Assembly: GCA_945860915.1 (NCBI GenBank)
Contig: CAMARR010000001.1
Coordinates: forward strand, 1 to 64,000
Source of the DNA: Candidatus Kuenenia stuttgartensis
GTDB lineage: Bacteria > Planctomycetota > GCA-002687715 > CAIWVZ01
DNA: 64,000 nt
Reading direction: 5' to 3'
Of this stretch, positions 22,688 to 58,305 are shown in pieces; position 1 is the stretch's first letter; each line of letters opens with the position of its first letter. The notes under the pieces were generated by a model. It saw only the letters and a program-made list of their open reading frames with translations, did not search any database and had not been told where the DNA came from. The translations under genes and the position numbers were made by a program.

Positions 22688-22691
22688 GCCG

Positions 22692-26681: not shown

Positions 26682-26692
26682 GCTCGTTACCG

Positions 26693-27718: not shown

Positions 27719-27753
27719 TCCGCAAGTTACAACATGGTGCGCAGTTCACCCCA

Positions 27754-39810: not shown

Positions 39811-40637
39811 CAGAACTCGTTTCAGTCGTCACGCGCACCAAGGATCGCCATCAGTTTCTACGCGAGGCGATCGCGAGTGTTGCGGCGCAGACTCATCGTC
39901 CTATTCAGCACGTCATCGTCAACGATGGTGGTGATGACGTTTCTTCAATCGTCGATCCTTTTCGCCAGCAAATGGAGATAACAGTCATCGACACGGGTGG
40001 GGTGGGTCGATGCAAGGCTGGCAATTTGGGACTGGCGGCAGCGCGAGGAACCTACATTCAGTGGCTTGATGATGACGACCTGCTCTACCCGACACACATC
40101 GCATCACTCTTGCAAGAGGCGGTGTCGACGCGCGAGAAAATCGTCTACTCCGATGCCCATCTCATCCATCAATCACGAACCTCGGATGGTGGATACCGGG
40201 AAGTTTCGCGCGTGCCGGCCCCAGTATTCGAGGGCACGAAGATCGCCCTGTGGCGTCGCGGGGACCTTCATCTCGTGATGGTGTTGCACCACAGAGAGTG
40301 CACCGATCGCTTGGGCGGATTTGACGAGTCGTTGCCTGTCCTCGAGGACATGGAGATGTTTGGTCGTTTCGCGCAGGACTATCGATTTCACCGGCTTCCT
40401 GGCATTACGGCAGGATTCAGAGTTCGGGATGACGAAACGAACGCCGTCACGGCACTGCGATCTGAGTTTGCCGAAACACGGGCAACTCTTTATCGACGCT
40501 ATGCTCATATCGTCATGCCTGAGTTGTTGTCAATGGTTGAATTCGGTGCAATCGAGTTAGCAGGCTTGAAGTCTCGCGTGGAGTCACTTGAGGCGGCGCT
40601 TCGTGAATTTCGCGAGGGATCCAAGTGGACTTCCTAA
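39807..40637 (+). CDS. Glycosyltransferase family 2
   Basis: VSVVTRTKDRHQFLREAIASVAAQTHRPIQHVIVNDGGDD...YIQWLDDDDLLYPTHI. Confidence 0.9.
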   Translation: MTELVSVVTRTKDRHQFLREAIASVAAQTHRPIQHVIVNDGGDDVSSIVDPFRQQMEITVIDTGGVGRCKAGNLGLAAARGTYIQWLDDDDLLYPTHIASLLQEAVSTREKIVYSDAHLIHQSRTSDGGYREVSRVPAPVFEGTKIALWRRGDLHLVMVLHHRECTDRLGGFDESLPVLEDMEMFGRFAQDYRFHRLPGITAGFRVRDDETNAVTALRSEFAETRATLYRRYAHIVMPELLSMVEFGAIELAGLKSRVESLEAALREFREGSKWTS

Positions 40638-41371
40638 GACGCTATGAGCCGCTCTATGGCGCAGACCATTTTGTCCGAGGAACACTCGTCGTCATCGCGC
40701 CGCATCCGGATGATGAGACGATCGGAGTCGGCGGCCTCATTGCGGCGCATCGCTCAAGAGGAGTACCGGTACACGTCATCGTGATGACGGACGGTAGTTC
40801 GGGGATTCCAGGCGAAAAAGCGACGGCAGACTATTGCGCGCTTCGCGAAGCGGAAACTCGTGCGGCGTCGAAGGCACTAGGTGGATTCGAACTTCGATTC
40901 CTCGGTTTCGAGGATGGTGCACTTGCGTCGTCGTTGGGCGTTGTGGACTCGCTGAGCAAGGCGCTTGTTGATATCAACCCAAAGACACTGGTGTTCCCGT
41001 CACCACTTGAGGTACACCCGGACCATCGAGCGGCCTCGTTAGCGGCGCTTCGTGCGTCAGCCGTGCTCGGTGGATCGGCGCGGCTTCTCGCATATGAGAT
41101 CGGCGCGATGATGCCGGCCAATGTGTTGCTCGACATCACTCCTTGGCAATCACAAAAACACGAAGCCATTCGCGCCTATGCCTCTCAGCTCGCGCACATG
41201 GACATTTGCGGCAAAGTGGCTGGGCTTAATCGTGCGCGGACGGTGAATGTTTCAGATCCTCAAGTGTTGGCTGCAGAAGCGTTCGCGGACATCGCTCCGA
41301 AGGACGTGGTTAACTACCTAACTTTCATGGATCAACTGGCACGGCTTCTTGATGGATCACTACCTACATAG
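40625..41371 (+). CDS. PIG-L family deacetylase (second copy)
   Basis: TLVVIAPHPDDETIGVGGLIAAHRSRGVPVHVIVMTDGSSGIP; FPSPLEVHPDHRAA. Confidence 0.9.
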   Translation: MDFLRRYEPLYGADHFVRGTLVVIAPHPDDETIGVGGLIAAHRSRGVPVHVIVMTDGSSGIPGEKATADYCALREAETRAASKALGGFELRFLGFEDGALASSLGVVDSLSKALVDINPKTLVFPSPLEVHPDHRAASLAALRASAVLGGSARLLAYEIGAMMPANVLLDITPWQSQKHEAIRAYASQLAHMDICGKVAGLNRARTVNVSDPQVLAAEAFADIAPKDVVNYLTFMDQLARLLDGSLPT

Positions 41372-41458
41372 CGGTGGCTCCTCGTCCCGCGACGTGGTAG
41401 ATTTTATAGCCTTGTGCGGTGTTTCTGCCGCAACGCGTTGAAGGACGATTAGGTCAGT

Positions 41459-42460
41459 ATGCCTGTAACTCAGGAGTCCAATCAGGCCCCGCAATCCGCT
41501 CGCGAGGTGGATGCTAGAGAGCGTTGGCTCAATTCGTCTCCGTTGCGTGGTCGGCACGGGGTGACGGCGGTGATGACATCCTTCAATAAGTGCGACTTCG
41601 TACGGAAGAACCTAGACGCCCTCCGTGGGCAGTCGGTGAAGTTTGACGCAATCGTGGTGGTTGACAACGCTTCGTCGGACGGAACGATCGAGATGATCAC
41701 CTCGGGCTACCCCGAGGTCACGTTAATCGTCATGCCCCATAGTCGCTATGGAGCTTGCGAGACTTTCAATATCGGATTCGCATCTGCCAGGACAGACTTG
41801 ATCGCCATTCTCGACGATGATGTTGAGCTCCCCGCCGAGTGGGTAGAGAAGATGGTGGCTCGGTTGGACGCGGACCCCGCAAGCACCGCAATGATCTCAT
41901 CGCATGTATGGGAGCCTGGGACGCCGGACTGGTACATGACGCATCCCGATGTTGTGCGGGAGCGATATATGGCGACGTTTCGTGGATGCGCAACGTTGGC
42001 ACGTCGCGACGTTCTCGAGCGTTGCGGCTGGTATGACGCCGATTTCTTCATCTACGGCAACGAACGAGACCTCTCGGCTCGTGTGTTGAACCTCGGGTGC
42101 CGCATACTTCAGTATCCTTCGGTTATCGTGAAGCATGGGACGCCATTCGGAATGAAGCACGGCAAGCGAAGCCTTTACTATCACGTCAGGAATTTGTGGT
42201 GGTATCTCTTCAAGCACGTGCCATGGTCGCAAGTGGCTCGATTCTTGGCGATGTTCGTGTGGAGATCGGTTGCTTCGAAGAAAACGGCAGCCGTTTCGGA
42301 CGCCGTTGGCACGATCGGGTTCTTCTCTACCGTCAAGGAAACTCCGGGCGGATTTTGGGTGGTGTTGAAGGCTACGTTCGACGCCTTCGCAGGCCTGCCT
42401 CGATGCCTTAGGAAGCGTGCGCCCTGCACGGCCGCCGATTTCAGCCTCCCAATCGGCTAG
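41459..42460 (+). CDS. Glycosyltransferase family 2
   Basis: GVTAVMTSFNKCDFVRKNLDALRGQSVKFDAIVVVDNASSDGTIEMI...LIAILDDDVELPAEWV. Confidence 0.9.
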   Translation: MPVTQESNQAPQSAREVDARERWLNSSPLRGRHGVTAVMTSFNKCDFVRKNLDALRGQSVKFDAIVVVDNASSDGTIEMITSGYPEVTLIVMPHSRYGACETFNIGFASARTDLIAILDDDVELPAEWVEKMVARLDADPASTAMISSHVWEPGTPDWYMTHPDVVRERYMATFRGCATLARRDVLERCGWYDADFFIYGNERDLSARVLNLGCRILQYPSVIVKHGTPFGMKHGKRSLYYHVRNLWWYLFKHVPWSQVARFLAMFVWRSVASKKTAAVSDAVGTIGFFSTVKETPGGFWVVLKATFDAFAGLPRCLRKRAPCTAADFSLPIG

Positions 42461-42463
42461 CTC

Positions 42464-43546
42464 ATGGGCGTAGCCAATACGAACGAGGTGAGTCAATCGG
42501 TCGTGCATCGTGTGTCCGTTGTTGTGACCTCGCACAACGCGAAGGCGACACTGCCGCGGACCCTGGCGTCCATCGCTGCGCTCACGGGCGTCGCGGAGGT
42601 GATTGTCATTGACAGTGGATCAACTGACGGTACCCCGGAACTTGTTCCCTCGTTCCTTCCAAATGCACGTGTCATCAAGTTGGCCGAAAACGTTGGTCCA
42701 TGCGTTACTCGAAATCTCGGTCTCAAGCAGGCGACATCGGCGTACGTCCTCCTCTTGGACGACGACATGGTATTTGACGGAGACATGCTTGATCGACTAT
42801 TAAGAGCCCTGTCGGATGCGCCGGGTCATGTCGCCGCAGGGCCGACGATCGTCTTTGATGATCGCCCCGGTTCTATTCAGTACGCGGGTGGCCGTATGCA
42901 TTTTGGTGGGCTCCCGCATCTGTTTCGACTAGGTGAGAGTCCTGATTCCGTCACGCGACCTGTCGATGTCGACATTCTGACAGCCGGGTGTCTGCTCGTC
43001 GCTAAGGAAAGTGCGCTGTCGATCGGTGGGTTTGACGAAAGGTTCTTCTATCTTGCCGAAGACGTCGACTTCGCCCTTCGGCTGCGATACAGAGGACATC
43101 GTCTTCTCTTAGTCTCTTCGGTGGTCGTTCGAAATGTTGGCGGATCGTCCGCGCTTTCCTTGAAAGACTCGGCCTATCCCGCCCGGCGTGTCGAACTCCA
43201 TAGCCGAAATCGATGGCTGCTTGTCGGACGCAATTACGATACTTGGACAATCTACGCGTTGATGCCTGCGCTCTTGTTGTACGAGGTCGCTTGGGCGGCG
43301 TTTGCGGCGTCGACAGGGCACCTCATGCCTTACATTCGTGGCAAGATGCGCGCCGTGGGATCCCTCCTCGAGCGCAGTCCTTGGCAGCGACAAGCTAAAC
43401 GCATCACAGATCGTTCGTTGATCGGTGCGCCCGCTATGACGTTCACGCGGACCGCTCTTTCGCAGAGCGGCGCTAAGGTTGGAGCCGTCGCGCTTGACGG
43501 TTCCTTGCGACTGATGTGGACATGCCTGCGGGGTTTGTTGCAGTGA
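42464..43546 (+). CDS. Glycosyltransferase family 2
   Basis: RVSVVVTSHNAKATLPRTLASIAAL...VIVIDSGSTDGTPELV...VLLLDDDMVFDGDMLDRLL. Confidence 0.9.
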   Translation: MGVANTNEVSQSVVHRVSVVVTSHNAKATLPRTLASIAALTGVAEVIVIDSGSTDGTPELVPSFLPNARVIKLAENVGPCVTRNLGLKQATSAYVLLLDDDMVFDGDMLDRLLRALSDAPGHVAAGPTIVFDDRPGSIQYAGGRMHFGGLPHLFRLGESPDSVTRPVDVDILTAGCLLVAKESALSIGGFDERFFYLAEDVDFALRLRYRGHRLLLVSSVVVRNVGGSSALSLKDSAYPARRVELHSRNRWLLVGRNYDTWTIYALMPALLLYEVAWAAFAASTGHLMPYIRGKMRAVGSLLERSPWQRQAKRITDRSLIGAPAMTFTRTALSQSGAKVGAVALDGSLRLMWTCLRGLLQ

Positions 43547-44463
43547 CAGCCCTTCCAGTCCACGTCATTATCGTGAACTGGAATGCCATCGAGGAGACCG
43601 TCCGATGTCTTCAGTCACTTTCACAAACTGAGCCACCGCCACAGCAGATTCATGTGGTCGATAATGGATCCGAACATGATGAGGCAGCTCGTCTGGCAGA
43701 ATCATTTCCGAACGTTCGTGTTCATGCGTTGGCTTCGAATACCGGCTTTGCGGGTGGATCGAATGTCGGAATTCGGCACGCGCTTGCTGAGGGTGCAAAG
43801 TTTGTGTTTCTGCTGAACAATGACGCAAGAGTGGATCGGGACACGATTCGCGCCCTTGTGGATGCGGCTTCGCGCCATCCGAGCGCGGGGCTGATCGGGC
43901 CGAGAATCTGGCGGGACCGCGCTCGTGATGTTCTTTGGGCGTGTGGTGTCAGGATGGGATTTGGACCCAATCTGGGGCAGCTTCGCGGTTTCAATCAGCT
44001 CGGTCAGGGACGCTACTTGAATGATGAGCGCGTTGACTCGCTTACCGGATGTGGCCTCTTGGTGCGTCGAGAGGTGTTCGAGGCCATCGGCGTTCTTGAT
44101 GAAAGCTACTTCGTTTATGTCGAGGATGCGGACTTCGCCGCCCGCGCCCGCGAGGCCGGATTCGATTGCCTGTACGTCTCGACTGCTCATTTGGAGCACC
44201 CTGGCGGATATTCGACAGGCGGGGGATATGCGGCAGGACGCAAGTATCTAACGGCGCATGGTGCGACTCGCTACCTCAAACGTCACGGCCGGTTCATTAA
44301 CTACATGTCATGGATCACATTCGATGTGGTTCTTTGGCCGTTCTTGTTAGTTCTCGCACTTTTTCGTGGTGAACTGCGCGCAGCTTGGGCAAAGGGAATG
44401 GGGACTCTGCATGGGGTGCTCGGGCTGGCGCCACGGCCGCCCAGTCGGACGCGTTCGTCGTGA
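43516..44463 (+). CDS. Glycosyltransferase family 2
   Basis: VHVIIVNWNAIEETVRCLQSLSQTEPPPQQIHVVDNGSEHDEAARLAESFPNVRVHALASNTGFAGGSNVGIRHALAEGAKFVFLLNNDARVD. Confidence 0.92.
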   Translation: MDMPAGFVAVTALPVHVIIVNWNAIEETVRCLQSLSQTEPPPQQIHVVDNGSEHDEAARLAESFPNVRVHALASNTGFAGGSNVGIRHALAEGAKFVFLLNNDARVDRDTIRALVDAASRHPSAGLIGPRIWRDRARDVLWACGVRMGFGPNLGQLRGFNQLGQGRYLNDERVDSLTGCGLLVRREVFEAIGVLDESYFVYVEDADFAARAREAGFDCLYVSTAHLEHPGGYSTGGGYAAGRKYLTAHGATRYLKRHGRFINYMSWITFDVVLWPFLLVLALFRGELRAAWAKGMGTLHGVLGLAPRPPSRTRSS

Positions 44464-45803
44464 GGGTCTTGATCGTTGTTCACCAGCTTCCTCCGCGGCA
44501 CCTTGCGGGAACAGAGATCTACTCACTGCGGCTGGCGCACGCGCTAAAAGACCTCGGACACACAGTGGCGCTTGCTTGTTCCGATGATTCGGGGTCGACT
44601 TCGACGGGGCGGATCTCAATGGGCGTGCTTGAGTCTGTGCCTGTCTATTGGATAGGGGTGGATCGGGTGGCCTCGTCATGTCGGGAGTCAGTTTTCCCTC
44701 CGAACACACGGGGCTCTCTTGCGCGTGTTGCATCGCAATTTGCACCTGACATTATTCACATTCAGCACTTGCGTTGGCTCGGGCTTCACGCGTTGGAAGG
44801 CATCAGCGGGATCCGATTGGTCGGCACATTGCATGACCACTGGGCTCTATGCGCACGCGATGGTCAACTCCTGACTCGAGATGGCGTACCCTGCGAGGGG
44901 CCAGATCCCTCGCGCTGCGCTGCTTGTCTTGTGGGATATCAATTCGGTTTAAGTCCACTGGAGGCGCGTGTGCGCCGAGTTCTTGGAAGGGTTGGAATCA
45001 GTCATTCAGGCGCCATCGGACGAGGGCTTCGCCGACTCGGCTTGTGGCGGCGCGGCACGCTGCAAGCACAACGTGGCCCTGAGTCAATCGATTTGGAATC
45101 GCGCGACGCGGCGTTTTTGGACTACTCGAGACGTGTAGATCGGTGGATTGCGCCGTCAGAGCATGTCGCAGCTTCACACAGGGCTTTTGGTTTTGACGCG
45201 ACAAAGATAGTTGTGGTGCCCCACGGAGTAGACGGCGACGCCGGCGCGAATCATGTCCCTCGAGAGGGTGGGCCGCTTCGTGTTGCTTACCTCGGCACCG
45301 TTGCACCCCAGAAGGGTGTTCACGTGCTCATCGAGGCTGCAAGGCGATTGCCACCAGATCTGATCCGTCTTGCCGTTCATGGCCGCATGGATCTTCGACC
45401 GGAGTACGCGTCGAGCCTCGTCGCGGGCGGCCTTCCGCGTGACGTGACGCTTCACGGCACCTTCGCGCCAGGTGATGCCGCTTCGATCCTTCGCCATGCC
45501 GACGTTGTTGTGGTCCCGTCCATCTGGCCCGAAAACCACCCGCTAGCCGTCGCTGAAGCTCTGGCTGCCCGAGTGCCCGTGGTTGCGAGCAATCTGGGCG
45601 GAATCCCTGAACTTATCGTAGACGGCTGCAACGGGCGTCTGGTCCCTCCCAACGACCCCGGGGCGCTTGCTGACGTACTTCACGAGCTGGCGAAGGACAC
45701 GGCCCATTTGTTGCGTCTTAAGGCGGGAATCATTTCGCCCATGAGTTTCAAAGACCATGCCAAGCGGGTGGTCTTGGCGTACGATATGGGTGAGGAACCC
45801 TGA
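44460..45803 (+). CDS. Glycosyltransferase family 4, GTG start overlapping upstream stop
   Basis: VRVLIVVHQLPPRHLAGTEIYSLRLAHALKD...GTVAPQKGVHVLIEAARRL...ENHPLAVAEALAARVPVVASNLGGIPELI (EX7E). Confidence 0.9.
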   Translation: MRVLIVVHQLPPRHLAGTEIYSLRLAHALKDLGHTVALACSDDSGSTSTGRISMGVLESVPVYWIGVDRVASSCRESVFPPNTRGSLARVASQFAPDIIHIQHLRWLGLHALEGISGIRLVGTLHDHWALCARDGQLLTRDGVPCEGPDPSRCAACLVGYQFGLSPLEARVRRVLGRVGISHSGAIGRGLRRLGLWRRGTLQAQRGPESIDLESRDAAFLDYSRRVDRWIAPSEHVAASHRAFGFDATKIVVVPHGVDGDAGANHVPREGGPLRVAYLGTVAPQKGVHVLIEAARRLPPDLIRLAVHGRMDLRPEYASSLVAGGLPRDVTLHGTFAPGDAASILRHADVVVVPSIWPENHPLAVAEALAARVPVVASNLGGIPELIVDGCNGRLVPPNDPGALADVLHELAKDTAHLLRLKAGIISPMSFKDHAKRVVLAYDMGEEP

Positions 45804-45804
45804 C

Positions 45805-47187
45805 ATGTCCGAAGCTAGCCTTTACGACCCATCTCGATACACGCCTGAGCAGATTGCTGCGTACAAGGCGGATAACGAACGTCGTGTCCGGGATGCAGCA
45901 CGGAAAGGCGATGCGTTTGTCGACGGATTGCCTCTCAAGGTTACTCTCGAGCTCACGGCCGACTGCAATTTGTATTGCCGCATGTGCGAGTTTCCAGTTC
46001 CCCGTGAACAGGGACGTGGCCGCTACGACCTTCACATGCCCGTCGAGACATTTCGCATGCTAGCGCCCCAGGTGTTTCCGCACGCGCGGATCGTCAATCT
46101 GACTGTTGTCGGGGAACCCTTGATGGTTCCGTACCTCGACGAGGTCCTCGACGAGTGCGCGAAGTGGCAGACCAGATTGGAACTTATTTCCAACGTCGTG
46201 TTGCTCGATGCAGCGATGTTGCAAAAAGTCGGACCGCACCTTGGTTGCCTCATCGTGTCATTCGACGGCGGAACTCGCCGAACGTTTAATCGGATTCGAG
46301 TGGGCTCAGATTTTGAACAAGTAACGCGCAACATGCTTCGCTTTGCTCGGTGGAGAGAAACGCTCTCTCCTGAACGTCGTCCCGGATTCCACCTCGCAGT
46401 GACGATGATGAAGGAGAACGCTCACGAGCTTCCGACCATTGTTCGAATCGCGAAGCTTTTAGGTGCCGACTTGGTTTCGGCGGCTTGGATGATTGCTTTC
46501 AACGACAAGCTCGCCAACTCGTCGCTTCTGCGGAATCGACCCCTCGCTAATCGCGCCTTGCGAGAGGCTCGTCGCGTGGCGGCAGAGCTTGGGGTGAAGA
46601 CGAATTTCCCGGTTGACTTCCCGGACGTTTCAGAAGCAGAGGTCGATGCAGTCCCGTTTGTCGAACCGCAGCTTCCCGACGGCGCACTCCCTCACCTCAA
46701 CGCGGCGTTGGCGGGCGGTCCGATCGACGCAGCAGCGTCTCTATCCGTGGTTGATGGGGATGTGCTCATTCCGCTGAGCGAAGTTGGCGGTCTGTCCACC
46801 GACGAGCCTCTTCCTACCGGCGACTCGGCAGATGCACGTCGTGTGCGCAATATGGCGTTTGCGGTCGCGCCTGCGGAGCCCCCGACTCCCGACCCAGGTC
46901 CTGACGGAAAACCACGGAATACCTGCAAGTTCCTCTGGAATGAACTATTCGTAAACGTATCTGGGGACGTCGCACCGTGTTGCATCCAGGGGCGGCCGGT
47001 GGTCGGAAGTACGCAGGAAACGAACCTGTCCGAGATCTGGAACAACGAACCCATGAAGGAAATGCGTCAGCGACTTCTCGATGGGGATCCGATTCCCTGT
47101 TGCAAGGACTGCAATTACAATACGCAGTTAGGTCAGGGCGCGTATCGGGAGGATACTTACTTCATCGATCTCAACCGAAAAGTTTGA
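45805..47187 (+). CDS. Radical SAM/SPASM-type protein
   Basis: LKVTLELTADCNLYCRMCEFPV (CxxxCxxC); C-terminal cysteines CKFLWNELFVNVSGDVAPCCIQG...IPCCKDCNYN. Confidence 0.9.
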   Translation: MSEASLYDPSRYTPEQIAAYKADNERRVRDAARKGDAFVDGLPLKVTLELTADCNLYCRMCEFPVPREQGRGRYDLHMPVETFRMLAPQVFPHARIVNLTVVGEPLMVPYLDEVLDECAKWQTRLELISNVVLLDAAMLQKVGPHLGCLIVSFDGGTRRTFNRIRVGSDFEQVTRNMLRFARWRETLSPERRPGFHLAVTMMKENAHELPTIVRIAKLLGADLVSAAWMIAFNDKLANSSLLRNRPLANRALREARRVAAELGVKTNFPVDFPDVSEAEVDAVPFVEPQLPDGALPHLNAALAGGPIDAAASLSVVDGDVLIPLSEVGGLSTDEPLPTGDSADARRVRNMAFAVAPAEPPTPDPGPDGKPRNTCKFLWNELFVNVSGDVAPCCIQGRPVVGSTQETNLSEIWNNEPMKEMRQRLLDGDPIPCCKDCNYNTQLGQGAYREDTYFIDLNRKV

Positions 47188-47214
47188 TCGTTCGTAGGGT
47201 CACCGGGGGAACGG

Positions 47215-50200
47215 GTGGGGAAGAGGGCTCGGATTAAAGTGCTCCATGTGGTGCACGGGTTCCCGCCGGAATGCCGTGGAGGCACAGAGTCCCTCGTGAA
47301 GACGGTTGCGGACGCACAGTGCGCACGTGGCGATGACATTGCGGTGCTTTACGGGACCCTCGAGGTCGGCGATGCACCGGTTTCCAAAGTGGACAACTCT
47401 GGCCCATTGACCCTCTACCGTCTGATCAAGGGTGGGTTCGACATCGACCGCTGGGATAAGTCCGATGACCTTGCCGCTGCCGCCGAGATCGACAGAATTC
47501 TCGAGTCCTTTGCACCGTCGGTTGTTCACGTCCATCAGTGGATTCGGCTGTCGCGATTCCTAGTTCGAGTAGCCCGATCTCGCGGGATTCCAGTTGTTCT
47601 GACCCTGCACGACGCAACGGCGACGTGTCCCACCGCATTTCGTCTCAGGTGTGGGTCGCTTTGCGATCGCGTTCCATCGGGCGCATCATGCTCAGGGTGC
47701 GCTCCGACGCCCCCGATGATGCGAGACCAGGAACTGGGTAAGGCGCTGGACCGTTATGCGTCCGACCTCCGACAGGAGGTATCTGCCGCGAATGTCGTGG
47801 TTGTTCCAACTCAGGCACATGCGACGTTTCTTTCTTCGTGGCTCCCCGTCGAGGTCCGGCCGATAGTCATTCCACACCCGCCTTTGAAGATTAAGCCTAG
47901 TTCTGCGGTAGCCCGGTCGCCCCGGTCCGAGGGTCCGCTTCGCGTCGTTTCCTTTGGATCGTTGAGCGACATCAAGGGCACGCCACTCCTCTACGAGGCG
48001 CTGCGGCTGCTGTCGTCTGCCGATCGCGCGGCTCTTCGCCTTACGGTGAAGGGCGAGGCAATCAACAGTGATGTCCGTGCCCGTCTCGATGCTCTCAAGC
48101 AGGGCATGCCCATTGAGGAAACCGGACCATATCGCCCCGACGAACTTGACGGTTCGCAATTCGATCTGGCGGTACTCCCGTCGTTCGCGTCTGAGTCGTG
48201 GAGTTTTGCGCTTGATGAGGCATGGGCCATCGGGCTTCCGGTTGTCGTCCCATCTCGGGGCGCACTCGGCGAACGTGTGGGAACCGCGGGGTTCACCTTC
48301 GACCCCGAAAACGCGAACGCTCTTGCGGGTGTGCTTTCCAGCCTTATTGCGCAGAGATCATTGATTCTGACAGCACGCGAGGCTATTCCCGCGCCCACGT
48401 CTCTCGTTTCGCATCTCGAAGAACTCGACCGAGCCTATTCGGCCGCGTCGAGATCACGGCAGACGTATGCTCCGCTCTGGCGCGATGCCGCAAGCGACAT
48501 GGCCAATCGCTTCCGGGATGCCGAACAAGAGTTACTTAATGCGCGGGGCCGATTGCAGGGCGAATCGGATCGATTCAACGATCTCACAACTGCGTTCCAC
48601 AGATCAGAGATCTCGGTCACAACCCTGCGCGGTGAGGTGGGGCGACTTGAAGGCATCGTTGCGGACTATCGGACGTCCGTGGCCAATCACCAAGGCGAGA
48701 ATGCAAGTCTCAAATCCGAGATACGCAGCCTTCAAGCCGAGCGCGCAGAACTCGCCGACGTCGTCCGCGAGCGTGACCGTAATCTCAGAGAGTTCGAGCG
48801 CTCCGTTGTTGAGTATCGCGAACTCCTTGCGCGGAAAGAGTCAGATCTATCACAGTTTCGAGTTTCGATTTCAGAGCATCAGCGCGTTCTCGAGGCGAAG
48901 AACGACCATCTCGAAGATCTACGCGGACAGGCGATGGACGCATCTACCGCCCTTCGTGAAGAGATTGCGCGCGCTACCGCGGATCACAACCGAACGAAGG
49001 AGCAGCTGGAGCAGCGTTCCGAGGAGCTTGCCCGTGTCTCTGCGGCCGGAGTAATCGCCGCGCGGGAGTTCCAGTCTCGATATGAAGAACTCTCCGTAAG
49101 ACTGAATCAATCGGAGGCGACCGCCTCGGCCTTGACACAAGAGTTGCTTTCGCTGCGCGAGTCGTCGGCAAGAGAAGCGCAACGGGTTGCTGCTCGGGCA
49201 ATGGAGCTTGTCTGTGAAGTGAGCGCCGTCAGAGAGAGACTTGACGCACTGACGACCGTTGCGATGCGCCACGTTGAGTCAATCGAGCATTTGCAAGGGC
49301 GTATTGAGGCCTCAGAGCGACGCGAGGCGTCCTTGTCGAAGAAGGTGACTGAACTTGCGTTGCGAGTGACCCAGTCGGACGGCGAGATTCAGATCTACGA
49401 GATCCGTGTCCGAGAGCTCGCTCGGGCTCGGCAGCTTTCCGAGGAGGTGGCATTGCATCTCAGTTTCGACCTCGGCCTTCTCCGCCGAGAACTCTCGCGT
49501 CAGGAATTAGCACAAGGTGCGCTTCGGCGGGACTTGGAGAGTTCGAGGACCGTCGCGGTCGAACTCACTTCGCGAATGTTACGCGCCGAGCAACGCTGGA
49601 TGCAGTCGGAAAGCGCTCATCGCGCCGCGTTGGCTCGCTCGGCCGAACTCGCGTCTGATGCGACGGAATTGAGCCGTCGCGTGCGTGCGATGAGCACGGG
49701 AATTACCCGAGAACTAGCGGCTTCCGAGAGTTGGCGTCGCCGTGCGATGGATGCGGAAAAGGCAGCGGCTACAAGAGCTGCATACGCACAAAAAATTAAG
49801 GAGTCCCAAGAAGACCTAGCCGTGAAGCTCGCAGAAGTTCAACTTGAACTGGGACTCAAGCTCGACGAAGAGGCGCGATTGACGGCACTCCTTGGGTCTC
49901 TCGCTCCTAGCAGAGCGAGCCTGGCAGATGCGGTTGCACAGCTACGCGCAGAGTCGGATGGTGTTCGTGCACAGCTCTCGGGAGTGTTCTTGGCCCTATC
50001 TGGAGCGAAGGCGGATCTGCCGGGCGCGCGGCGCTTGCTCGGTGTAACTGATAAGCGCTTGCGGGTGTTGATAGTTGTGCATGACTTTCTCCCATATCAC
50101 GCCGCGGGTTCCGAGATCTACACGTACCAACTCGCCAAAGCACTTTCGACTCATTGCGATGTGCATCTGCTGTTCTGCGAGAATCGACCGGATCGACCGC

Positions 50201-51435
50201 AGTATGAGACCAGAAACGGCGTATACGATGGGATTCCATTCACCGAGGTTGTTCACCATGACGCCTTTCCAACGTTCGGACTCACCTACGAGGATCCCGC
50301 GATGGAGCGGGTCTTTGATGGCGTTGTTGATAGTTTCCAACCGAACGTTGTTCACATCCAACACCTCAAGTTTTGGGGCGTCGGTATCGTCGAACGCGCG
50401 CGAGCAAAGAACTGCCCCGTATTCTTCACCCTGCATGAGTACATGCTGATCTGTCCGCGAGACGGCCAAATGCTTCGCCCGAGCGGCGAGCGATGTGACG
50501 TGCCTGTGGTTTCGACCTGCGCCTCATGCATCGAAGGCAGGGCACTGGAACAGGGTTGGATAGGTCGTCGAGCCATCGCAGCCGGCCGTTTTCTGTCCGA
50601 GCGACTCCCGGATGGTGCGCGCCATCTGGGAGCTCGAGTCGCTAGGCGAGTCGCCGTGCGGAATGCCTCTGCAGGGACGCAGATAGCGCGAGAACAGGCT
50701 ATCTCCACTCGACTTTCGCGCACAGCGGACGCACTCCGACATGTAGAGACATTCTTGGCCCCAAGTCAATTCTTGCGAGATCGATTTGTTGCGTCAGGGA
50801 TGATCCCCCCCGATCGCATTGAATGGTCGAGATACGGACAAGAGGTCTCGCGTTTCCCACATGTCGCGAAGGTTCCTTCCGCTCGATTGCGGGTGGGATA
50901 CCTTGGCACAGTCTCGGCCTATAAGGGACTGGGCGTCTTTGTTGAGGCGCTTGAATCACTGTCGTCGTTCCCCATCGAAGGGCGCATTCACGGTGCCCTT
51001 GAGATCTTCCCCGACTATGTGTCTTATCTGCGGGAAACCGTAAGGAACCCCAACATCCATCTGATGGGGAGATTCGATAACAAGGATGTCGCGCGCCTGT
51101 TGGCAGAGATCGATGTCCTGGTAGTTCCGAGCCTCTGGTGGGAGAACGCGCCGCTTACTATTCATGAGGCCTTTCTCGCTCGTGTGCCGGTTGTCTGCTC
51201 AGATATTGGCGGAATGAGGGAGCTTGTGACACATGGCAAGAATGGCCTTCACTTTGTCGTCGGCGACGCATCAGACCTAGCTCGCAAGTTGCTTTCGCTC
51301 GCAACCGATCAAGAGTTTCTCAAAAAATTGACTCCGGATCCTGCGGACATTCGCGACATTCGTGAGGATGCGGTCTCAATGATTGCTCGATATCATCGGG
51401 CGCTTGTTCGTCGTAAGCAGCACGGTGCTTCATGA
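47215..51435 (+). CDS. GT4 - long coiled coil - GT4 fusion protein (1406 aa)
   Basis: N-term VLHVVHGFPPECRGGTESLV and ESWSFALDEAWAIGLPVVVPSRGALGERV; residues 421-897 proline-free, rich in E/R/L/A/S; C-term RVLIVVHDFLPYHAAGSEIYTYQLAKAL and ENAPLTIHEAFLARVPVVCSDIGGMRELV. Confidence 0.88.
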   Translation: MGKRARIKVLHVVHGFPPECRGGTESLVKTVADAQCARGDDIAVLYGTLEVGDAPVSKVDNSGPLTLYRLIKGGFDIDRWDKSDDLAAAAEIDRILESFAPSVVHVHQWIRLSRFLVRVARSRGIPVVLTLHDATATCPTAFRLRCGSLCDRVPSGASCSGCAPTPPMMRDQELGKALDRYASDLRQEVSAANVVVVPTQAHATFLSSWLPVEVRPIVIPHPPLKIKPSSAVARSPRSEGPLRVVSFGSLSDIKGTPLLYEALRLLSSADRAALRLTVKGEAINSDVRARLDALKQGMPIEETGPYRPDELDGSQFDLAVLPSFASESWSFALDEAWAIGLPVVVPSRGALGERVGTAGFTFDPENANALAGVLSSLIAQRSLILTAREAIPAPTSLVSHLEELDRAYSAASRSRQTYAPLWRDAASDMANRFRDAEQELLNARGRLQGESDRFNDLTTAFHRSEISVTTLRGEVGRLEGIVADYRTSVANHQGENASLKSEIRSLQAERAELADVVRERDRNLREFERSVVEYRELLARKESDLSQFRVSISEHQRVLEAKNDHLEDLRGQAMDASTALREEIARATADHNRTKEQLEQRSEELARVSAAGVIAAREFQSRYEELSVRLNQSEATASALTQELLSLRESSAREAQRVAARAMELVCEVSAVRERLDALTTVAMRHVESIEHLQGRIEASERREASLSKKVTELALRVTQSDGEIQIYEIRVRELARARQLSEEVALHLSFDLGLLRRELSRQELAQGALRRDLESSRTVAVELTSRMLRAEQRWMQSESAHRAALARSAELASDATELSRRVRAMSTGITRELAASESWRRRAMDAEKAAATRAAYAQKIKESQEDLAVKLAEVQLELGLKLDEEARLTALLGSLAPSRASLADAVAQLRAESDGVRAQLSGVFLALSGAKADLPGARRLLGVTDKRLRVLIVVHDFLPYHAAGSEIYTYQLAKALSTHCDVHLLFCENRPDRPQYETRNGVYDGIPFTEVVHHDAFPTFGLTYEDPAMERVFDGVVDSFQPNVVHIQHLKFWGVGIVERARAKNCPVFFTLHEYMLICPRDGQMLRPSGERCDVPVVSTCASCIEGRALEQGWIGRRAIAAGRFLSERLPDGARHLGARVARRVAVRNASAGTQIAREQAISTRLSRTADALRHVETFLAPSQFLRDRFVASGMIPPDRIEWSRYGQEVSRFPHVAKVPSARLRVGYLGTVSAYKGLGVFVEALESLSSFPIEGRIHGALEIFPDYVSYLRETVRNPNIHLMGRFDNKDVARLLAEIDVLVVPSLWWENAPLTIHEAFLARVPVVCSDIGGMRELVTHGKNGLHFVVGDASDLARKLLSLATDQEFLKKLTPDPADIRDIREDAVSMIARYHRALVRRKQHGAS

Positions 51436-53696
51436 AGATTCTCATGGTGACAACCGGGCTTCCGCCAGGTTCGCGTGGTGGCACAGAGACCCATGTCGTC
51501 TCCCTTGCGTCGCATCTCGCGCGCCAAGGCCACGATGTCGTTCTTTTTTGCCGTGAAGGCGGATCCTCGCGCGCTCCGTTCTCCGTTCGTCGAGATACTC
51601 TTCATGGGCTTTCGACGCATCGAATCGCGTATGGCTTTCATGATGCGTCGACTTTCGACAAGATCCACCGGAATGTCGAAATCGAGATGGCGTTTCGATC
51701 CGTGGTGGTGGAGGTTAAGCCGGACCTTGTTCATGTCCATCACTTAAGTTGCCTTTCAACGGGCATTCTTGACCTCGTGGCGAGTCTTGACATTCCACTT
51801 GTCATGACTCTTCATGACTACTGGCTGGCATGTCCACGGGGCCAGCGCATCATGAAAGACCTGACCGTGTGTCAGGACCTTGATCGTTCGCGGTGTGCGC
51901 CATGCCTGAAGGAACTTTGGCCGCATTTTGAGATTACGCCCGGCGACCTCGAGGCACTTGATCTTGAGTTGCTCGCGCGTGTCAATCGTTGTGATCTTCT
52001 TCTTGCACCGTCAGAGTTTCATCGAGCGCGCATGACTGAGTGGGGCGTTGACCCCAATAGACTTCACGTTGAGGCCCACGGGCTTGATTCTGGTGGATTT
52101 GAGATCGCACAGCGGCTTCGCGAAGGCATTAGAACCGTGGGCTATATTGGCAGCCTGATTCCTTCGAAGGGAGTTCATGTTCTCATTGAAGCCTGGAATC
52201 AAGTTGGGCGCGAAGACGTTGAGTTAGTGATCCATGGAGAGGCTCCTAACTTTCATGGAGACTCGGGCTATCTCGAACGTCTCAACGCGTCAGTTCGCAG
52301 TGGGTTGAAAGTGCGATTCGGGGGCCCTTTTGATGTGGCCGGCGTTCCCCGACTGCTGCGGGGGATCGACTTGCTCGTGGTCCCACCGGTGTGGTGGGAG
52401 TCGTTCTGCCTGACCGCACGTGAAGGGTTTCTAGCTGGGGTTCCAGTGGTGGCGTCACGACATGGCGCACTTGTGGAGGCATTCGATGACGGCAAAGGCG
52501 GGGTGTTCTTCGAGCCGGGGAACGCATCCGATCTCGCAGCTAAGCTTCGCGGCCTAATCGACGCCCCGAAGGCACATGCAGCGCTTGCCGCTTCGGTTCC
52601 ATCCGTGCGATCAATGGACGACTGCGCTCGCGCGACTGCTGCACGATATGCGTCCGCGATCGCTGCGCGAAGGCACGCGCGAGCGGCCTCCGGGGAGTCC
52701 TCGATTGGGTTCGTGTCGGGAGATTCTTCGGTCCAACCGTATGTGACCGTGTTCTTGCCAACGTGGAACGGTCTTCCCGAGATTGACGCCGTCCTTGCTC
52801 AGATTACGAGACAGGTGACATCGTTTCCCTATGAGGTGTTGATCATCGACTCCGGATCAACTGACGGTACGCTGGACGTGATTCGCAAGTATCCCGGCAT
52901 TCGACTTCTGACTATTCCCAACGACGAATTCAATCATGGGCTCACTCGAAATCGTGGTGTCGCAGAGTCTCGTGGCGACATTGTCGCCTTGCTGACGCAG
53001 GACGCGGAACCCCTCAACGAGCACTGGTTGGCGCAACTCGTCTCTAACTTCCAAGATCCTAAGGTCGCAGGTGTCTACTGCACGCAGAGACCTCGACCTG
53101 ATTGCAATCCGTTCGCCCGTGACCGATTGAAGGATTGGACGGCGGAGTCGGGTGATCCGGTCGTCCAAGGTCCTATTTCTGCAGGGGAATTCGCAGCGAT
53201 GCGTCCGTGGGATCGTTACCTAGTTTCACGATTCGATGATGTGGCATCGTGCGTGCGCAAGTCCGCAATGATCGAGGTCCCCTATGCGCGTCGCCAGTTT
53301 GGCGAGGACGTTGAATGGGGCAGCCGAGCCGTCGTGGCCGGTTGGAAGATTGTTAACGATCCGAAGTCGGTAGTGATTCACTCCCACGACAGCCCGGTCC
53401 TTTACGAGTTTAAACGTGTGTACTTGGACCATCAAAATCTCTTTCAACTGTTTGGTTTGCACACTCTCCCTAGGATCTCTGACGTTCCGCTGTGCTCAGT
53501 TCGCTATTTCCTCCACTTGCTTCCTGTCGTCTGGCGGGATGATCGAAGCGTCGGATTCCGACTTTGGTGGACACTCAAGCTTCCGCTTTACGCATTTACT
53601 CAGAATCTCGCACAGTGGCTTGGCGCTAAGTCTGTTCAATGGAGAAAAGAGGGTAAACATTCTTGGGTGGACGCTCTTATGAAAAAGTCGGTTTGA
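51432..53696 (+). CDS. GT4-GT2 fusion glycosyltransferase (754 aa)
   Basis: N-term MKILMVTTGLPPGSRGGTETHVVSLASHL, ESFCLTAREGFLAGVPVVASRHGALVEAF; C-term YVTVFLPTWNGLPEIDAVLAQI...YEVLIIDSGSTDGTLDVIRKYPGIRLLTIPNDEFNHGLTRNRGVAESRGDIVALLTQDAEP. Confidence 0.9.
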   Translation: MKILMVTTGLPPGSRGGTETHVVSLASHLARQGHDVVLFCREGGSSRAPFSVRRDTLHGLSTHRIAYGFHDASTFDKIHRNVEIEMAFRSVVVEVKPDLVHVHHLSCLSTGILDLVASLDIPLVMTLHDYWLACPRGQRIMKDLTVCQDLDRSRCAPCLKELWPHFEITPGDLEALDLELLARVNRCDLLLAPSEFHRARMTEWGVDPNRLHVEAHGLDSGGFEIAQRLREGIRTVGYIGSLIPSKGVHVLIEAWNQVGREDVELVIHGEAPNFHGDSGYLERLNASVRSGLKVRFGGPFDVAGVPRLLRGIDLLVVPPVWWESFCLTAREGFLAGVPVVASRHGALVEAFDDGKGGVFFEPGNASDLAAKLRGLIDAPKAHAALAASVPSVRSMDDCARATAARYASAIAARRHARAASGESSIGFVSGDSSVQPYVTVFLPTWNGLPEIDAVLAQITRQVTSFPYEVLIIDSGSTDGTLDVIRKYPGIRLLTIPNDEFNHGLTRNRGVAESRGDIVALLTQDAEPLNEHWLAQLVSNFQDPKVAGVYCTQRPRPDCNPFARDRLKDWTAESGDPVVQGPISAGEFAAMRPWDRYLVSRFDDVASCVRKSAMIEVPYARRQFGEDVEWGSRAVVAGWKIVNDPKSVVIHSHDSPVLYEFKRVYLDHQNLFQLFGLHTLPRISDVPLCSVRYFLHLLPVVWRDDRSVGFRLWWTLKLPLYAFTQNLAQWLGAKSVQWRKEGKHSWVDALMKKSV

Positions 53697-53697
53697 C

Positions 53698-54966
53698 ATG
53701 CGGGTCCTCTTGGTCGGGCATGTGCGCGAGGGATCTGAGGGAGGTGGGGTTGGGCGTCACCTTGAGGCACTAGCAGCGGCGCTGGCTTCAGCGTCTCACG
53801 AGGTGTCGATATTCACACGTGTCTCTGAACCTCGCTTTCCCGACTTGTGCTGGTTTGAAGAATCGCCCGGTAGATTTCGATGGAATCACCTTGGGAAAGC
53901 AGGGACTTCCTTTCGCGCTCGAACAGTGTTTCCACCTGCAGAAGTTGCATTTCGACACGTCGTTGATCGTGTTCAACCAGACCTAATTGCGTTCCATCAT
54001 TTGTCTTGGTTGTCAGTGGGATTGGTGGGCATCGCAGCGAGTTGCGGGGTGAGGACCGTCATTACTCTCCATGATTTCATCTCGGATTGTCCTCGCGGTC
54101 AGCGTTATCGGCCTGATGATGTGGCTTGCGTCGAAGTTGATCGCGCGCGTTGCGCCACTTGCGTGACACCTCGTTTCGTTGAGGGGTTTCGCGGCGAGAA
54201 TAGGATTCAGTCGGCGCTGTCGATGCTGTTGCCTTCTACTGACACGAAGTTGTTTTCTGAGCGTGACGCTCATTGGACAGCGACTCTCGCTGCAGCAGAT
54301 GCAATCGTTGTCCCGAGTGAAAGCACGCGTCGACTACTCGAAGCGACGTTTCCTGTCGCTATGGCCCGCGCACGAGTTTTGCCGCCGTTCGTTGAGGTCG
54401 TTGGCGAGCCGCCTCCTCAACGCTTGCGGGGGACGGCGTCTGAGTACGCTGTGGGCTACTTCGGATCAGTGATTCCATCGAAAGGTGTTGACATCGCAGC
54501 GATGGCTGCGGTTCGGTCTGCGGGGCGGGTTCGACTTCACGTTTTTGGTGGAGATGTCAACGAGTTTCAGGCCGGGATTTCGCTCCGGGCCGGCAATGCT
54601 GTCGTCTGGCACGGGAAATTTGACGAGGGGATGCTTCCTCATTTGATGTCCGAACTCGATGCCGTGGTGATTCCGTCCCGATGGCCGGAGACCTTCAATA
54701 TTGTCTTGCGGGAGACCGTGATCTTAGGGCGCGCGGTTATCGCCAGTCGCGTCGGAGCGCTTGTAGAGGCAATTGATCGGGGTTGGGCTGTCGGTGTCGA
54801 GCCGGGCGACCCCAATGCGTTGCTACAAGCGTGTCTCGATGTGATTGAGAGCGGACCTCCTAGTGTTTCGCTGCGTGGGGAGGCAATGAACGAATTCGCG
54901 GAGTCAAGGCAGAACCATCTCCGGCTCTACGAGCAGGTGGCTTCAAGTGGTATGACGGTGGCATGA
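53698..54966 (+). CDS. Glycosyltransferase family 4
   Basis: MRVLLVGHVREGSEGGGVGRHLEALAAAL...; GSVIPSKGVDIAAMAAV; ETFNIVLRETVILGRAVIASRVGALVEAI (EX7E). Confidence 0.88.
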   Translation: MRVLLVGHVREGSEGGGVGRHLEALAAALASASHEVSIFTRVSEPRFPDLCWFEESPGRFRWNHLGKAGTSFRARTVFPPAEVAFRHVVDRVQPDLIAFHHLSWLSVGLVGIAASCGVRTVITLHDFISDCPRGQRYRPDDVACVEVDRARCATCVTPRFVEGFRGENRIQSALSMLLPSTDTKLFSERDAHWTATLAAADAIVVPSESTRRLLEATFPVAMARARVLPPFVEVVGEPPPQRLRGTASEYAVGYFGSVIPSKGVDIAAMAAVRSAGRVRLHVFGGDVNEFQAGISLRAGNAVVWHGKFDEGMLPHLMSELDAVVIPSRWPETFNIVLRETVILGRAVIASRVGALVEAIDRGWAVGVEPGDPNALLQACLDVIESGPPSVSLRGEAMNEFAESRQNHLRLYEQVASSGMTVA

Positions 54967-57065
54967 TTCGACCCTCGCTGATAGTCGCTGTGATGACGTT
55001 GACCTTGCCGATGTGGAGCCAGGGTAGGGCTATCGTGATTGGTGTCGACGGATTGGACCCGGCATGGTGTTCTCGTTGGATGGCGGACGGAAGCCTTCCT
55101 GAACTAAAGGCGCTTGCTGACTCTGGACGACTTTCACCACTTCGACCAACAAATCCCGCTCAGTCTCCCGTGTCATGGTCGTCGATGGTGACGGGCCGTG
55201 ATCCCGGCGAGACCGGCATCAATGACTTCCTTCGCCGAGACTCACGCGGCGGCGAGATAACTGCGGAGCTGTCCCTCGTCGACCGTGTGCAGATTCCGTT
55301 GCGGGCGCCTGCTGTCGGGCTCATGACGGCAATCGTACTCGTCGTCACCGGCTTCGTGGCCTGGAGACGACTCCGGCGTGGCGCGGTCGCTCAGAAGGCT
55401 CCGCTACTGATGACCTTGGGTGGCATTGCGATTTGCATTGCTGCGGTGGGAAGCTGGTTGCCGTCTTACGTCGAAGTCCCCCGCAATGCGCGTGGAGGCG
55501 AGGCGATCTGGGAGCGTGCCGATCGGGCAGGACTAGGTTCAGTCAACCTGTTTGCTCCGATGTCTTTTCCTGCTCCACAGCTCGATCATGGTTGCGTTCT
55601 CTGCGGACTCGGGGTGCCCGATGTCATGGGCACCCCAGGAACTGCGACCGTCTATCGCGAGGAGCCGATTCCGGGAGGGCGTCTACTCACGCCGACCGGG
55701 TGTCGCGTTGAGTCCGTGCGCGAGGAAAACGGGGCACTCGTTGGGCCGAGAGTCGAAGGCCCTAAGCGCTCCGACGGTACACGTCCTACGCTTCCAATCA
55801 GATTTGTACCTGATCGCGCGCGTCGCACGGTTTCATTGACTATTGGAGATGGACTCGCAATTGAGATACCGGAGGGCGGTTGGACTCCCTGGGTGGACAC
55901 ACCACTCAGCCTAGGACCTCTCGGTGTCCTAAGCGCAATTTCGAGATGGCGTCTAGTTGAAGGTGGTGCGCGGACCGTGATCTATCAAGAGCCATCGTGC
56001 TTCGATCCTAGGTCTCCAATGATGGCTGCACCGGTTGTTTCGCCATCGAACTTCGGAACGCAACTGCTCGCGGACGGACGCGCCTTCGGCACATTGGGAT
56101 GGGCGTGCGCGACAAACCCTCTTCAGGACGAGATCATCGACGAGTCGACGTTCATCACTCAGGTTGAGGCTATCGACGCAGAGCGAGAAGAAATGGTGAT
56201 GCGAAGCTTGAGTCGCAAGGGCTGGAAGTTGTTCTTTTGCGTTCTGTCGACGCCCGATCGAGTTCAGCACGTCTTCTACCGCGATCACGACCCTCTGCAC
56301 CCACGGCACGACGCATCGGCGATTGCTCGACGTGGCGATCCCATGAAGGATTCCTACCGACGCCTAGACCGCCTGGTCGGGCGCGTGCGGCGCGAAATTG
56401 CTTCGAAAGACGACCTCGTCATGGTGGTCTCCGATCACGGCGTCGCTCCGTTTCGCTGGCAGGTCAACCTCAATCGTTGGTTGGCGGAGGAGGGGTACCT
56501 GGTCGGATCCGATTCGGGTTCGATTCGCAGCATCGAAGAGTCGATCGGTGGTGCAGCGCTATTCCCGGGAGTGGATTGGTCTCAAACGAGGGCCTACTCC
56601 ATGGGCCTCGGAAAAATCTACATCAACGTGGCCGGGCGTGAGCCGCGAGGTTCCGTGCCAATCGGCGAGCGACGACGGGTTTTAGAGGAGATCAAGGTCA
56701 AATTGCTTTCGCTCACTCATAGTGGACGGAGGGTGGTCCGCTCGGCCGAGATCCGAGAGGATCTCTACGTTGGCGATCGCATAGAGGCATCTGCCGATCT
56801 CATTGTGGGGTTCGAGTCGGGATATCGGATCTCATGGCAGGCGACCCTAGGGGCATTCGATGAGGCGGTCGTGACCCCAAATCGACGACTCTGGAGCGGA
56901 GACCATTGTTCGGTGGATCCTGGTGTCGTTCCCGGGGTGTTAATTGCATCACGCCCGTTTGATGACGAATCGATTTCGGTCGTCGATGTCTTCCCTACGA
57001 TTGAAGCTTGGCTTGCGCTTCAGAAGTCACCCGGACTTCGCGGGAAGGCACTGACGTGGAGGTAG
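54963..57065 (+). CDS. Alkaline-phosphatase-superfamily (type I phosphodiesterase/pyrophosphatase-like) membrane protein
   Basis: VIGVDGLDPAWCSRWMADGSLPELKALADSGRLSPL...PAQSPVSWSSMVTGRDPGETGINDF; DLVMVVSDHGVAPFRWQVNLNRWLAEEGYL; two TM segments between these parts. Confidence 0.82.
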   Translation: MIRPSLIVAVMTLTLPMWSQGRAIVIGVDGLDPAWCSRWMADGSLPELKALADSGRLSPLRPTNPAQSPVSWSSMVTGRDPGETGINDFLRRDSRGGEITAELSLVDRVQIPLRAPAVGLMTAIVLVVTGFVAWRRLRRGAVAQKAPLLMTLGGIAICIAAVGSWLPSYVEVPRNARGGEAIWERADRAGLGSVNLFAPMSFPAPQLDHGCVLCGLGVPDVMGTPGTATVYREEPIPGGRLLTPTGCRVESVREENGALVGPRVEGPKRSDGTRPTLPIRFVPDRARRTVSLTIGDGLAIEIPEGGWTPWVDTPLSLGPLGVLSAISRWRLVEGGARTVIYQEPSCFDPRSPMMAAPVVSPSNFGTQLLADGRAFGTLGWACATNPLQDEIIDESTFITQVEAIDAEREEMVMRSLSRKGWKLFFCVLSTPDRVQHVFYRDHDPLHPRHDASAIARRGDPMKDSYRRLDRLVGRVRREIASKDDLVMVVSDHGVAPFRWQVNLNRWLAEEGYLVGSDSGSIRSIEESIGGAALFPGVDWSQTRAYSMGLGKIYINVAGREPRGSVPIGERRRVLEEIKVKLLSLTHSGRRVVRSAEIREDLYVGDRIEASADLIVGFESGYRISWQATLGAFDEAVVTPNRRLWSGDHCSVDPGVVPGVLIASRPFDDESISVVDVFPTIEAWLALQKSPGLRGKALTWR

Positions 57066-57595
57066 CGGGCCGTGCAGAATGGCTCCGTCGTTGCGTACAC
57101 ATTGCGGTCGGCATACCTGCATGGATCGTCACGCGCGAGACGGCGATGACGTGGGCATACGCATGTTTTGCAGGGGCGTTTTTCAATACGTTGTTGCTGT
57201 CGCGGGTTCCGGTTGTCGGCGACGTGACTCGAGTTGTCCGCGGAACCCGTGGAACTATCTTGTATCCTTTGGTCATAGGCGTCCTTCTTGTTCTGTTTCG
57301 GGAGCGACCACAGTTGGCGTGTGTCGGCTGGCTAGCGCTCGCACTCGGCGATGGATCAACACCGTTCTTTGCAAGAGTTCGGTCTTGTGCGTGGCCCACC
57401 AACCCAAAGAAGAAGCTCATACCCTCGCTCCTCGGTGGACTCGTGGCGGGCGCCGGGGCGTCTTTTGTGATTGACGCCAAAATCGCTTTTCCCGCCTGTC
57501 TTGTTGCCGCACTCGCCGATGCGATCCCGTGGTGTGACGACAATGTGTCGTGGCCGGTGTTGGCGGCTACCGTCGCATGGGGGATGAGTACGTGA
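57056..57595 (+). CDS. Phytol/dolichol-kinase-like (VTE5/SEC59 family) membrane protein, GTG start
   Basis: LALALGDGSTPFFARVRSCAWPTNPKKKLIPSLLGGLVAGAGASFVI...ALADAIPWCDDNVSWPVLAA resembles the D-G...K-S..G and VEslP..DDNltVP motifs. Confidence 0.7.
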   Translation: MEVAGRAEWLRRCVHIAVGIPAWIVTRETAMTWAYACFAGAFFNTLLLSRVPVVGDVTRVVRGTRGTILYPLVIGVLLVLFRERPQLACVGWLALALGDGSTPFFARVRSCAWPTNPKKKLIPSLLGGLVAGAGASFVIDAKIAFPACLVAALADAIPWCDDNVSWPVLAATVAWGMST

Positions 57596-58305
57596 CGCGT
57601 GACCCTTGGCTCAACGATGTGGCGGTGTCCGCGGTCACCGGTCTCGTATTGACGTTGCCCGTGGTCGCCGCGCGTGTCGCTACGCCATCGGGCGTTCTCG
57701 CTGGGGCGTTTTTCACTGCGTGGATGAGCTATCAGGGCGGCGCTCCGACTCTGGTGGCATTCGCCTGCCTTGTGGTTTTCGGAAGTCTGTCGTCGCGCGC
57801 AGGTCGGGCGCGCAAGGAAGTTCTTGGGGTCGCACAGGAGGGAGGTGGGCGCCGCGCGTTCAAGCACGTGCTGGCGAATGCCGGACCTGCTGCTACCGCA
57901 CTCTTTTTCGGGTTGCTGTTTCCGCAATTCCACGACGCCTCGGTGGCGGCCGCCTGCGGTGCCCTCGCGGGAACACTTTCAGACACAGTATCTGGTGAAA
58001 TTGGGATGCTCGTCTCGAGTCCACCCAGACTTCTTTTGATTGGTCCGATTGTCCGCCGGGGTACCGACGGAGGGATGACCTACGTTGGCGTGATGGCCGG
58101 AGTCGTTACTGCTGCTTTGGTTGCACTCGCGGTCACCCCGTGGAACCTGCGATGGGTCTCAGTCTTCGCCGCAGGCGTCATGGGGACACTCTCAGATAGC
58201 GTCTTGGGTGCCACGATTGAGCGTCGGCGCTTGATCGGCAATGAGGGCGTGAATTTCGTGTCTGGAGCCTTAGCTGCAGCGACCGCCTGGAGTCTTGAGT
58301 CATGA
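57592..58305 (+). CDS. DUF92/TMEM19 family (phytyl-phosphate-kinase VTE6-like) membrane protein, GTG start
   Basis: RRAFKHVLANAGPAATALFFGLLFP...CGALAGTLSDTVSGEIGMLVSSPPRLLLIGPIVRRGTDGGMTYVGVMAG...GVMGTLSDSVLGATIERR. Confidence 0.85.
   Translation: MTRDPWLNDVAVSAVTGLVLTLPVVAARVATPSGVLAGAFFTAWMSYQGGAPTLVAFACLVVFGSLSSRAGRARKEVLGVAQEGGGRRAFKHVLANAGPAATALFFGLLFPQFHDASVAAACGALAGTLSDTVSGEIGMLVSSPPRLLLIGPIVRRGTDGGMTYVGVMAGVVTAALVALAVTPWNLRWVSVFAAGVMGTLSDSVLGATIERRRLIGNEGVNFVSGALAAATAWSLES

Follow-up and report, generated by a model that had tools for sequence, protein, structure and literature searches.

Coiled-coil rulers of glycan length have been proven in a few Klebsiella and Escherichia coli O-antigen systems, in which an extended coil, placed between a terminator on the N-terminal side and a polymerase on the C-terminal side, measures the length of the glycan, and in Klebsiella O12 every one of these activities lies within a single polypeptide (PMC11231755). 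One account of spacer coils attributes to them a divergent sequence with a kept length (PMC5082667). Here we analyse a 64,000-nucleotide stretch of DNA from Candidatus Kuenenia stuttgartensis (contig CAMARR010000001.1; the whole stretch is called the window below), in which one gene encodes a protein with a GT4 glycosyltransferase (GT) domain at each end and a long, predicted helical rod between them. We compare this fused protein with its relatives in the order and phylum and with the systems above, and weigh whether its rod may serve a similar end.

Results

Both ends of the fused protein are GT4 domains, and they belong to different subfamilies. The acceptor-side and donor-side domains of GT4 are present in two copies each (PF13439, PF13692, PF00534): PF13439 and PF13692 each match twice above the curated cut-off, and both ends pass that of PF00534, the N-terminal domain with 37 bits and the C-terminal domain with 80. 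Pfam in this way places the two complete GT4s which an earlier note on the window had read from its letters, and the motifs named in that note, VVHGF and VVHDF in the two N lobes and one EX7E per end (Table 1), are where it put them. The G...K loop, the N-lobe histidine and several further residues are likewise invariant in both ends of the 18 fused proteins described below. In Foldseek searches both GT parts matched retaining GT4/GT5 enzymes of the GT-B fold with E values of about 1e-15 to 1e-17, for models with a mean predicted local distance difference test score (pLDDT) of 71-74 built on thin alignments. By Pfam domains, EX7E and predicted fold, both ends are thus GT4, that is, putative retaining GT-B enzymes. 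In a tree of 87 GT domains, the N-type and C-type domains formed separate GT4 subfamilies with full support, which rules out that the protein arose by internal duplication of a single activity. Each N lobe also carries four invariant cysteines (138, 150, 159 and 162; 1080, 1094, 1102 and 1105); the same cluster is present in the window's other GT4 proteins and looks like a metal-binding or structural cysteine cluster.

Table 1 Features of the fused gene and its surroundings (positions in the window).
Feature	Position	Strand	Remarks
Fused GT4 - helical rod - GT4 gene	47215..51435	+	1406 aa, GTG start; Pfam, orthologues
N-terminal GT4 domain, N-type subfamily	47215..48444	+	residues 1-410; Pfam, tree, AlphaFold2
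N-terminal EX7E, ESWSFALDE	48193..48219	+	residues 327-335; E327/E335 invariant in 18/18 fused proteins
Proline-free stretch	48475..49905	+	residues 421-897, 477 residues
Strong coiled-coil part of rod	48475..49374	+	residues 421-720; COILS-type score, 3.5-residue periodicity, AlphaFold2 helices
Helical, weakly heptad, proline-free part of rod	49375..49905	+	residues 721-897; AlphaFold2, periodicity
C-terminal GT4 domain, C-type subfamily	50020..51432	+	residues 936-1406; Pfam, tree, AlphaFold2, Foldseek
C-terminal EX7E, ENAPLTIHE	51142..51168	+	residues 1310-1318; E1310/E1318 invariant in 18/18 fused proteins
Conserved glycan operon block	36537..59237	+	synteny in up to 9 other order genomes; Pfam
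Radical SAM/SPASM protein	45757..47187	+	conserved, immediately 5' of the fused gene at most type I loci, between glycosyltransferase genes
GT4-GT2 two-domain protein	51432..53696	+	conserved downstream neighbour; ATGA overlap with fused gene
Wzm-Wzt type ABC polysaccharide exporter	21827..23882	+	Wzt with C-terminal Wzt_C domain; about 23 kb upstream of fused gene

The proline-free stretch is bounded by prolines 420 and 898 (at bases 48472 and 49906), as had been claimed, and a run of this length would be expected by chance with a probability of about 10^-13.6 at the proline frequency of the GT parts (6.4%). We scored coiled coil with a COILS-type matrix, taken as a relative measure only and set against shuffled linkers and the GT parts. 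The score exceeded 0.5 at 309 of the 525 linker residues, compared with a mean of 77 and a maximum of 146 in shuffled linkers and with none in the GT parts; the signal fell into segments 421-459, 477-611, 614-720 and 848-875. Over residues 421-720 hydrophobic periodicity lay near 3.5 residues (p <=0.006) with a few register shifts. The coiled coil which the earlier note had drawn over all 477 residues is well supported for about 300 of them, the remainder being predicted helical and weakly heptad.

AlphaFold2 was run on two overlapping pieces (residues 1-720 and 691-1406), with an alignment drawn from window sequences alone. It predicted a GT-B domain, helices at 399-491, 497-647, 652-719, 726-844 and 850-930, and a second GT-B domain, with rod pLDDT mostly between 50 and 85, that is, of moderate confidence. 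No globular domain was predicted between the GT-B ends in either piece, and the globular middle that would have spoken against a rod was thus not encountered. The short breaks between the helices may be kinks or hairpins, so that the length of about 70 nm, which the earlier note had given for one continuous helix, is an upper limit.

The same architecture is conserved throughout the order. In 11 of the 12 genomes sampled we found 18 full-length GT4-rod-GT4 proteins of 1195-1446 aa, 11 at the window's locus (type I) and seven elsewhere (type II), and at least seven genomes hold a type II paralogue away from the type I operon; the twelfth genome (G005) gave matches on short contigs only, two of them beside contig ends. 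A class-level search returned the same 12 genomes. The window's own genome encodes a second such protein, of 1195 aa, on contig C14, and each of two congeners carries a syntenic orthologue of the window's protein, about 1290 aa long. Since the fused frames recur in separate assemblies of 11 genomes, a fusion created by sequencing error, which the earlier note had itself named as a way to refute its reading, is excluded, and order-wide conservation supports a single intact polypeptide.

Between the two congeners the ratio of nonsynonymous to synonymous substitution rates (dN/dS) was 0.14 for both the rod and the N-terminal domain and 0.08 for the C-terminal domain, and their rods aligned over 413 codons without an indel. 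The rod is under purifying selection, judging from these ratios, though its sequence is poorly conserved: type I linkers share a median identity of 18%, whereas the GT parts reach 39% and 44%. Linker length was 381-431 residues in nine of the 11 type I proteins and 314-553 residues across all 18. In the type II gene of genome G010 (L075:8777-8952) a recent 84-bp tandem duplication with a 98% match lies inside the rod and adds exactly 28 residues, or four heptads; as a single event it could be due to chance. The type II locus of the window's genome (L009:6375-19901, G000:C14) places the fused gene near genes for a membrane protein, a beta-helix protein, further GT4s and a large sulfatase-like protein that carries HEAT repeats, and parts of this set are shared by other members of the order.

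Unfused relatives occur elsewhere in the phylum. We sampled 100 phylum genomes, five of them from the order, and among the about 95 others no fused GT4-rod-GT4 frame was found. In several of these the N-type GT4 with a C-terminal coil is a separate gene; across the split relatives the coil is short or missing (0 to about 180 residues), yet in several genomes the N and C genes still lie side by side. The stop of the unfused N gene overlaps the start of a downstream C-type GT4 at three loci (L096, GTGA; L105, ATGA; L108, GTGA), and at two more (L097 and L098) the N-type GT4-coil gene is followed by one for a two-module GT2-GT4 protein. The C-type domains of L096 and L108 group in the clade containing the fused C domains. 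From these overlaps and this grouping, the fusion most likely joined a pre-existing, translationally coupled gene pair. A single fusion event is compatible with the trees (approximately unbiased test of a single origin, p 0.084 for N and 0.416 for C).

At the coil end, a cationic amphipathic segment is the top-scoring linker segment in seven of the 11 type I proteins, and in the tails of split N-type proteins it scores above the coil. Membrane anchoring by an amphipathic helix is suggestive in these relatives, but not in the window's protein.

The fused gene lies within a conserved glycan operon. The block comprises ORF36.5, PIG-L, GT4, GT2, PIG-L, three GT2, GT4 and radical SAM genes, and then the fused GT4-GT4, GT4-GT2, GT4, phosphodiesterase, DUF92 and UbiA genes. 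Across the order this arrangement is largely preserved from the first PIG-L gene to the radical SAM/SPASM gene, and 3' of the latter for the fused, GT4-GT2, phosphodiesterase, DUF92 and UbiA genes. The operon closes (57008-59237) with three consecutive genes, conserved in the order, for a small membrane protein that Pfam does not match, a DUF92 protein and a prenyltransferase of the UbiA type; this row may form an isoprenoid (phytol/polyprenol-type) module beside the glycan genes. Next to the Wzm-Wzt genes, at 26612-28773, lie two neighbouring genes for paralogous GNAT-like proteins, each about 365 aa long. Wzy_C proteins are present in every genome of the order and none was found in a fusion locus, by which Wzy-dependent assembly was ruled out.

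Discussion

The reading we prefer, at a probability of roughly 0.4, is that the fused protein is a bifunctional glycan-assembly enzyme in which two active, non-equivalent GT4s are carried on a long helical spacer, after the manner of WbdD, WbbB and O7 ORF6. Both ends would act on one glycan, the C-terminal end elongating and the N-terminal end capping; the rod is probably an oligomeric coiled-coil spacer, and its length would matter. Close to the membrane, the C-terminal GT4 would lengthen a lipid-linked glycan; the N-terminal GT4, kept at a distance by the rod, would reach the far, non-reducing end only when the chain has grown long enough, and would there perform capping or a late addition. 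The spacer or ruler which the earlier note had imagined fits both the precedent (PMC11231755) and the evolution of the coil. We count in favour of such an enzyme the 18 fused proteins, their syntenic operon, the invariant EX7E and G...K motifs and the two subfamilies; the split pairs, of which those with a GT2-GT4 protein look much like a coiled-coil terminator beside a dual-module polymerase; the low dN/dS of the rod (0.14), the kept length of type I rods and the four-heptad duplication; and the WbbB-type precedent, the Wzm-Wzt exporter upstream and the amphipathic segment in relatives.

Several observations weigh against this reading. Residues 721-897 have a COILS-type score of mostly about 0.1, and their periodicity is not significant (p 0.30 and 0.45). 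Linker length is not tightly fixed, with a coefficient of variation of 10% in type I and 22% in type II. The window's protein exceeds its congeners by 117 residues in rod length, an excess that reflects either a longer glycan or a loosely constrained length, and for which an origin in tandem repeats was ruled out, none having been found at 48000-50300. In the window's protein and in its congeners, as in type II, the amphipathic segment is weak and not top-scoring, and amphipathic moments were mostly not significant against shuffles; WbdD has a membrane helix at its coil end, which the window's protein apparently lacks. Wzt_C gives one match per genome of the order and lies near the fused gene in the window's genome only, being 157 kb from it in G010 and on other contigs in the remaining genomes. 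The activities and acceptors of both ends, and the glycan product, are putative assignments.

A serious rival, which accounts for most of the facts nearly as well and which we hold, tentatively, to be a real possibility, is a scaffold without measurement. The coil would only oligomerise and tether the two GT4s, which would add consecutive sugars within a fixed oligosaccharide or a repeat unit, and its length would be loosely constrained. The about ten GTs in conserved operon order suggest one enzyme per linkage and also fit an oligosaccharide of fixed structure, which would leave no length to measure, a further point against a ruler, and the short or absent coils of the split relatives, several with adjacent N and C genes, agree with a scaffold as does the spread of linker lengths among the 18 proteins. 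However, the fused rods far exceed the length needed to tether or to oligomerise, and most type I rods stay near 400 residues despite their 18% identity.

The membership of the two domains in different GT4 subfamilies, and the lack of any tie to one acceptor in the data, would also suit two ends serving different acceptors (two glycans, for example, or lipid and protein), with the rod bridging a distance in the cell such as that from the membrane to a cytoplasmic partner; we think this improbable, as unfused N- and C-type genes adjoin with overlapping stop and start and the fused gene lies within one operon. That one of the two GT domains is without catalytic activity, or serves in regulation or glycan binding, as the lower PF00534 score of the N-terminal domain might hint, is more improbable still, given that all 18 proteins keep EX7E, the G...K motif and the N-lobe histidine unchanged at both ends. 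An assembly or sequencing error fusing two genes could invoke the split forms in other families of the phylum, but is scarcely credible in view of the full-length frames in 11 genomes, the purifying selection on the rod and the paralogue of the same architecture in the same genome.

A bolder form of our preferred reading, which we regard as doubtful, is that these proteins form an order-wide ruler class built of GT4s only, with up to two per genome for two glycan loci, derived from a coupled terminator-coil/polymerase pair, their rods evolving partly by whole heptads and tuning glycan length between species. If the ruler reading is true, the principle reaches a distant lineage as a fixed, duplicated part of conserved operons. 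Natural rods of about 315 to 550 residues on similar enzymes would then make a ready series for relating rod length to glycan length, and the split and fused versions show how neighbouring genes can give rise to such a protein.

Among retaining GT4 enzymes of known structure, the best sequence or fold matches of the two ends (MshA, BshA, HepE/Alr3699, PglA and PimA) share the GT-B fold and EX7E, but they are single-domain, rodless enzymes with 11-20% identity to the fused ends in Foldseek alignments. PglH of Campylobacter jejuni, likewise a retaining glycosyltransferase, works by a counting or ruler mechanism (PMC5792488); it counts three sugars by a short helix in one GT domain and has neither a long coil nor a second GT. 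The earlier note had thought two catalytic domains split by so long a rod unusual; two catalytic ends on a coil do have precedents, in WbbB and ORF6, with other catalytic families. GT-coil-catalytic proteins being known, so is the kind of architecture. In the open-licence literature searched, no order-conserved GT4-coil-GT4 form with two paralogues was found, and what appears new here is a GT4 at both coil ends, conserved through an order, in two paralogues.

Among the closest likenesses, WbbB of Klebsiella pneumoniae O12 unites in one polypeptide an N-terminal catalytic terminator, a coiled coil and, on the C-terminal side, polymerising GT modules (PMC11231755). Its modules are GT99, GT102 and GT103, with proven functions, whereas the fused protein has GT4 twice, one GT after the rod, and predicted roles. 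ORF6 of K. pneumoniae O7 is also a large protein with a catalytic domain, a central coil and GT modules (PMC11231755), but unlike the fused protein it has an N-terminal methyltransferase-kinase, two C-terminal GT2 modules and no GT4. WbdD of E. coli O9a, which works with WbdA, resembles it in holding a catalytic domain on a long coil away from a membrane-proximal polymerase (PMC3482155, PMC11231755); in WbdD, though, the enzyme is a kinase-methyltransferase and the C-terminal region measures about 249 residues (460-708), compared with a GT4 and a 525-residue linker here, and no WbdD chain was among the five PDB matches of P0001 at E 1e-5. Type I rods show the pattern attributed to spacer coils, divergent in sequence and in most cases near 400 residues long, and the split pairs of L097 and L098, an N-type GT4-coil protein beside a separate GT2-GT4 protein, share the layout of WbdD plus WbdA.

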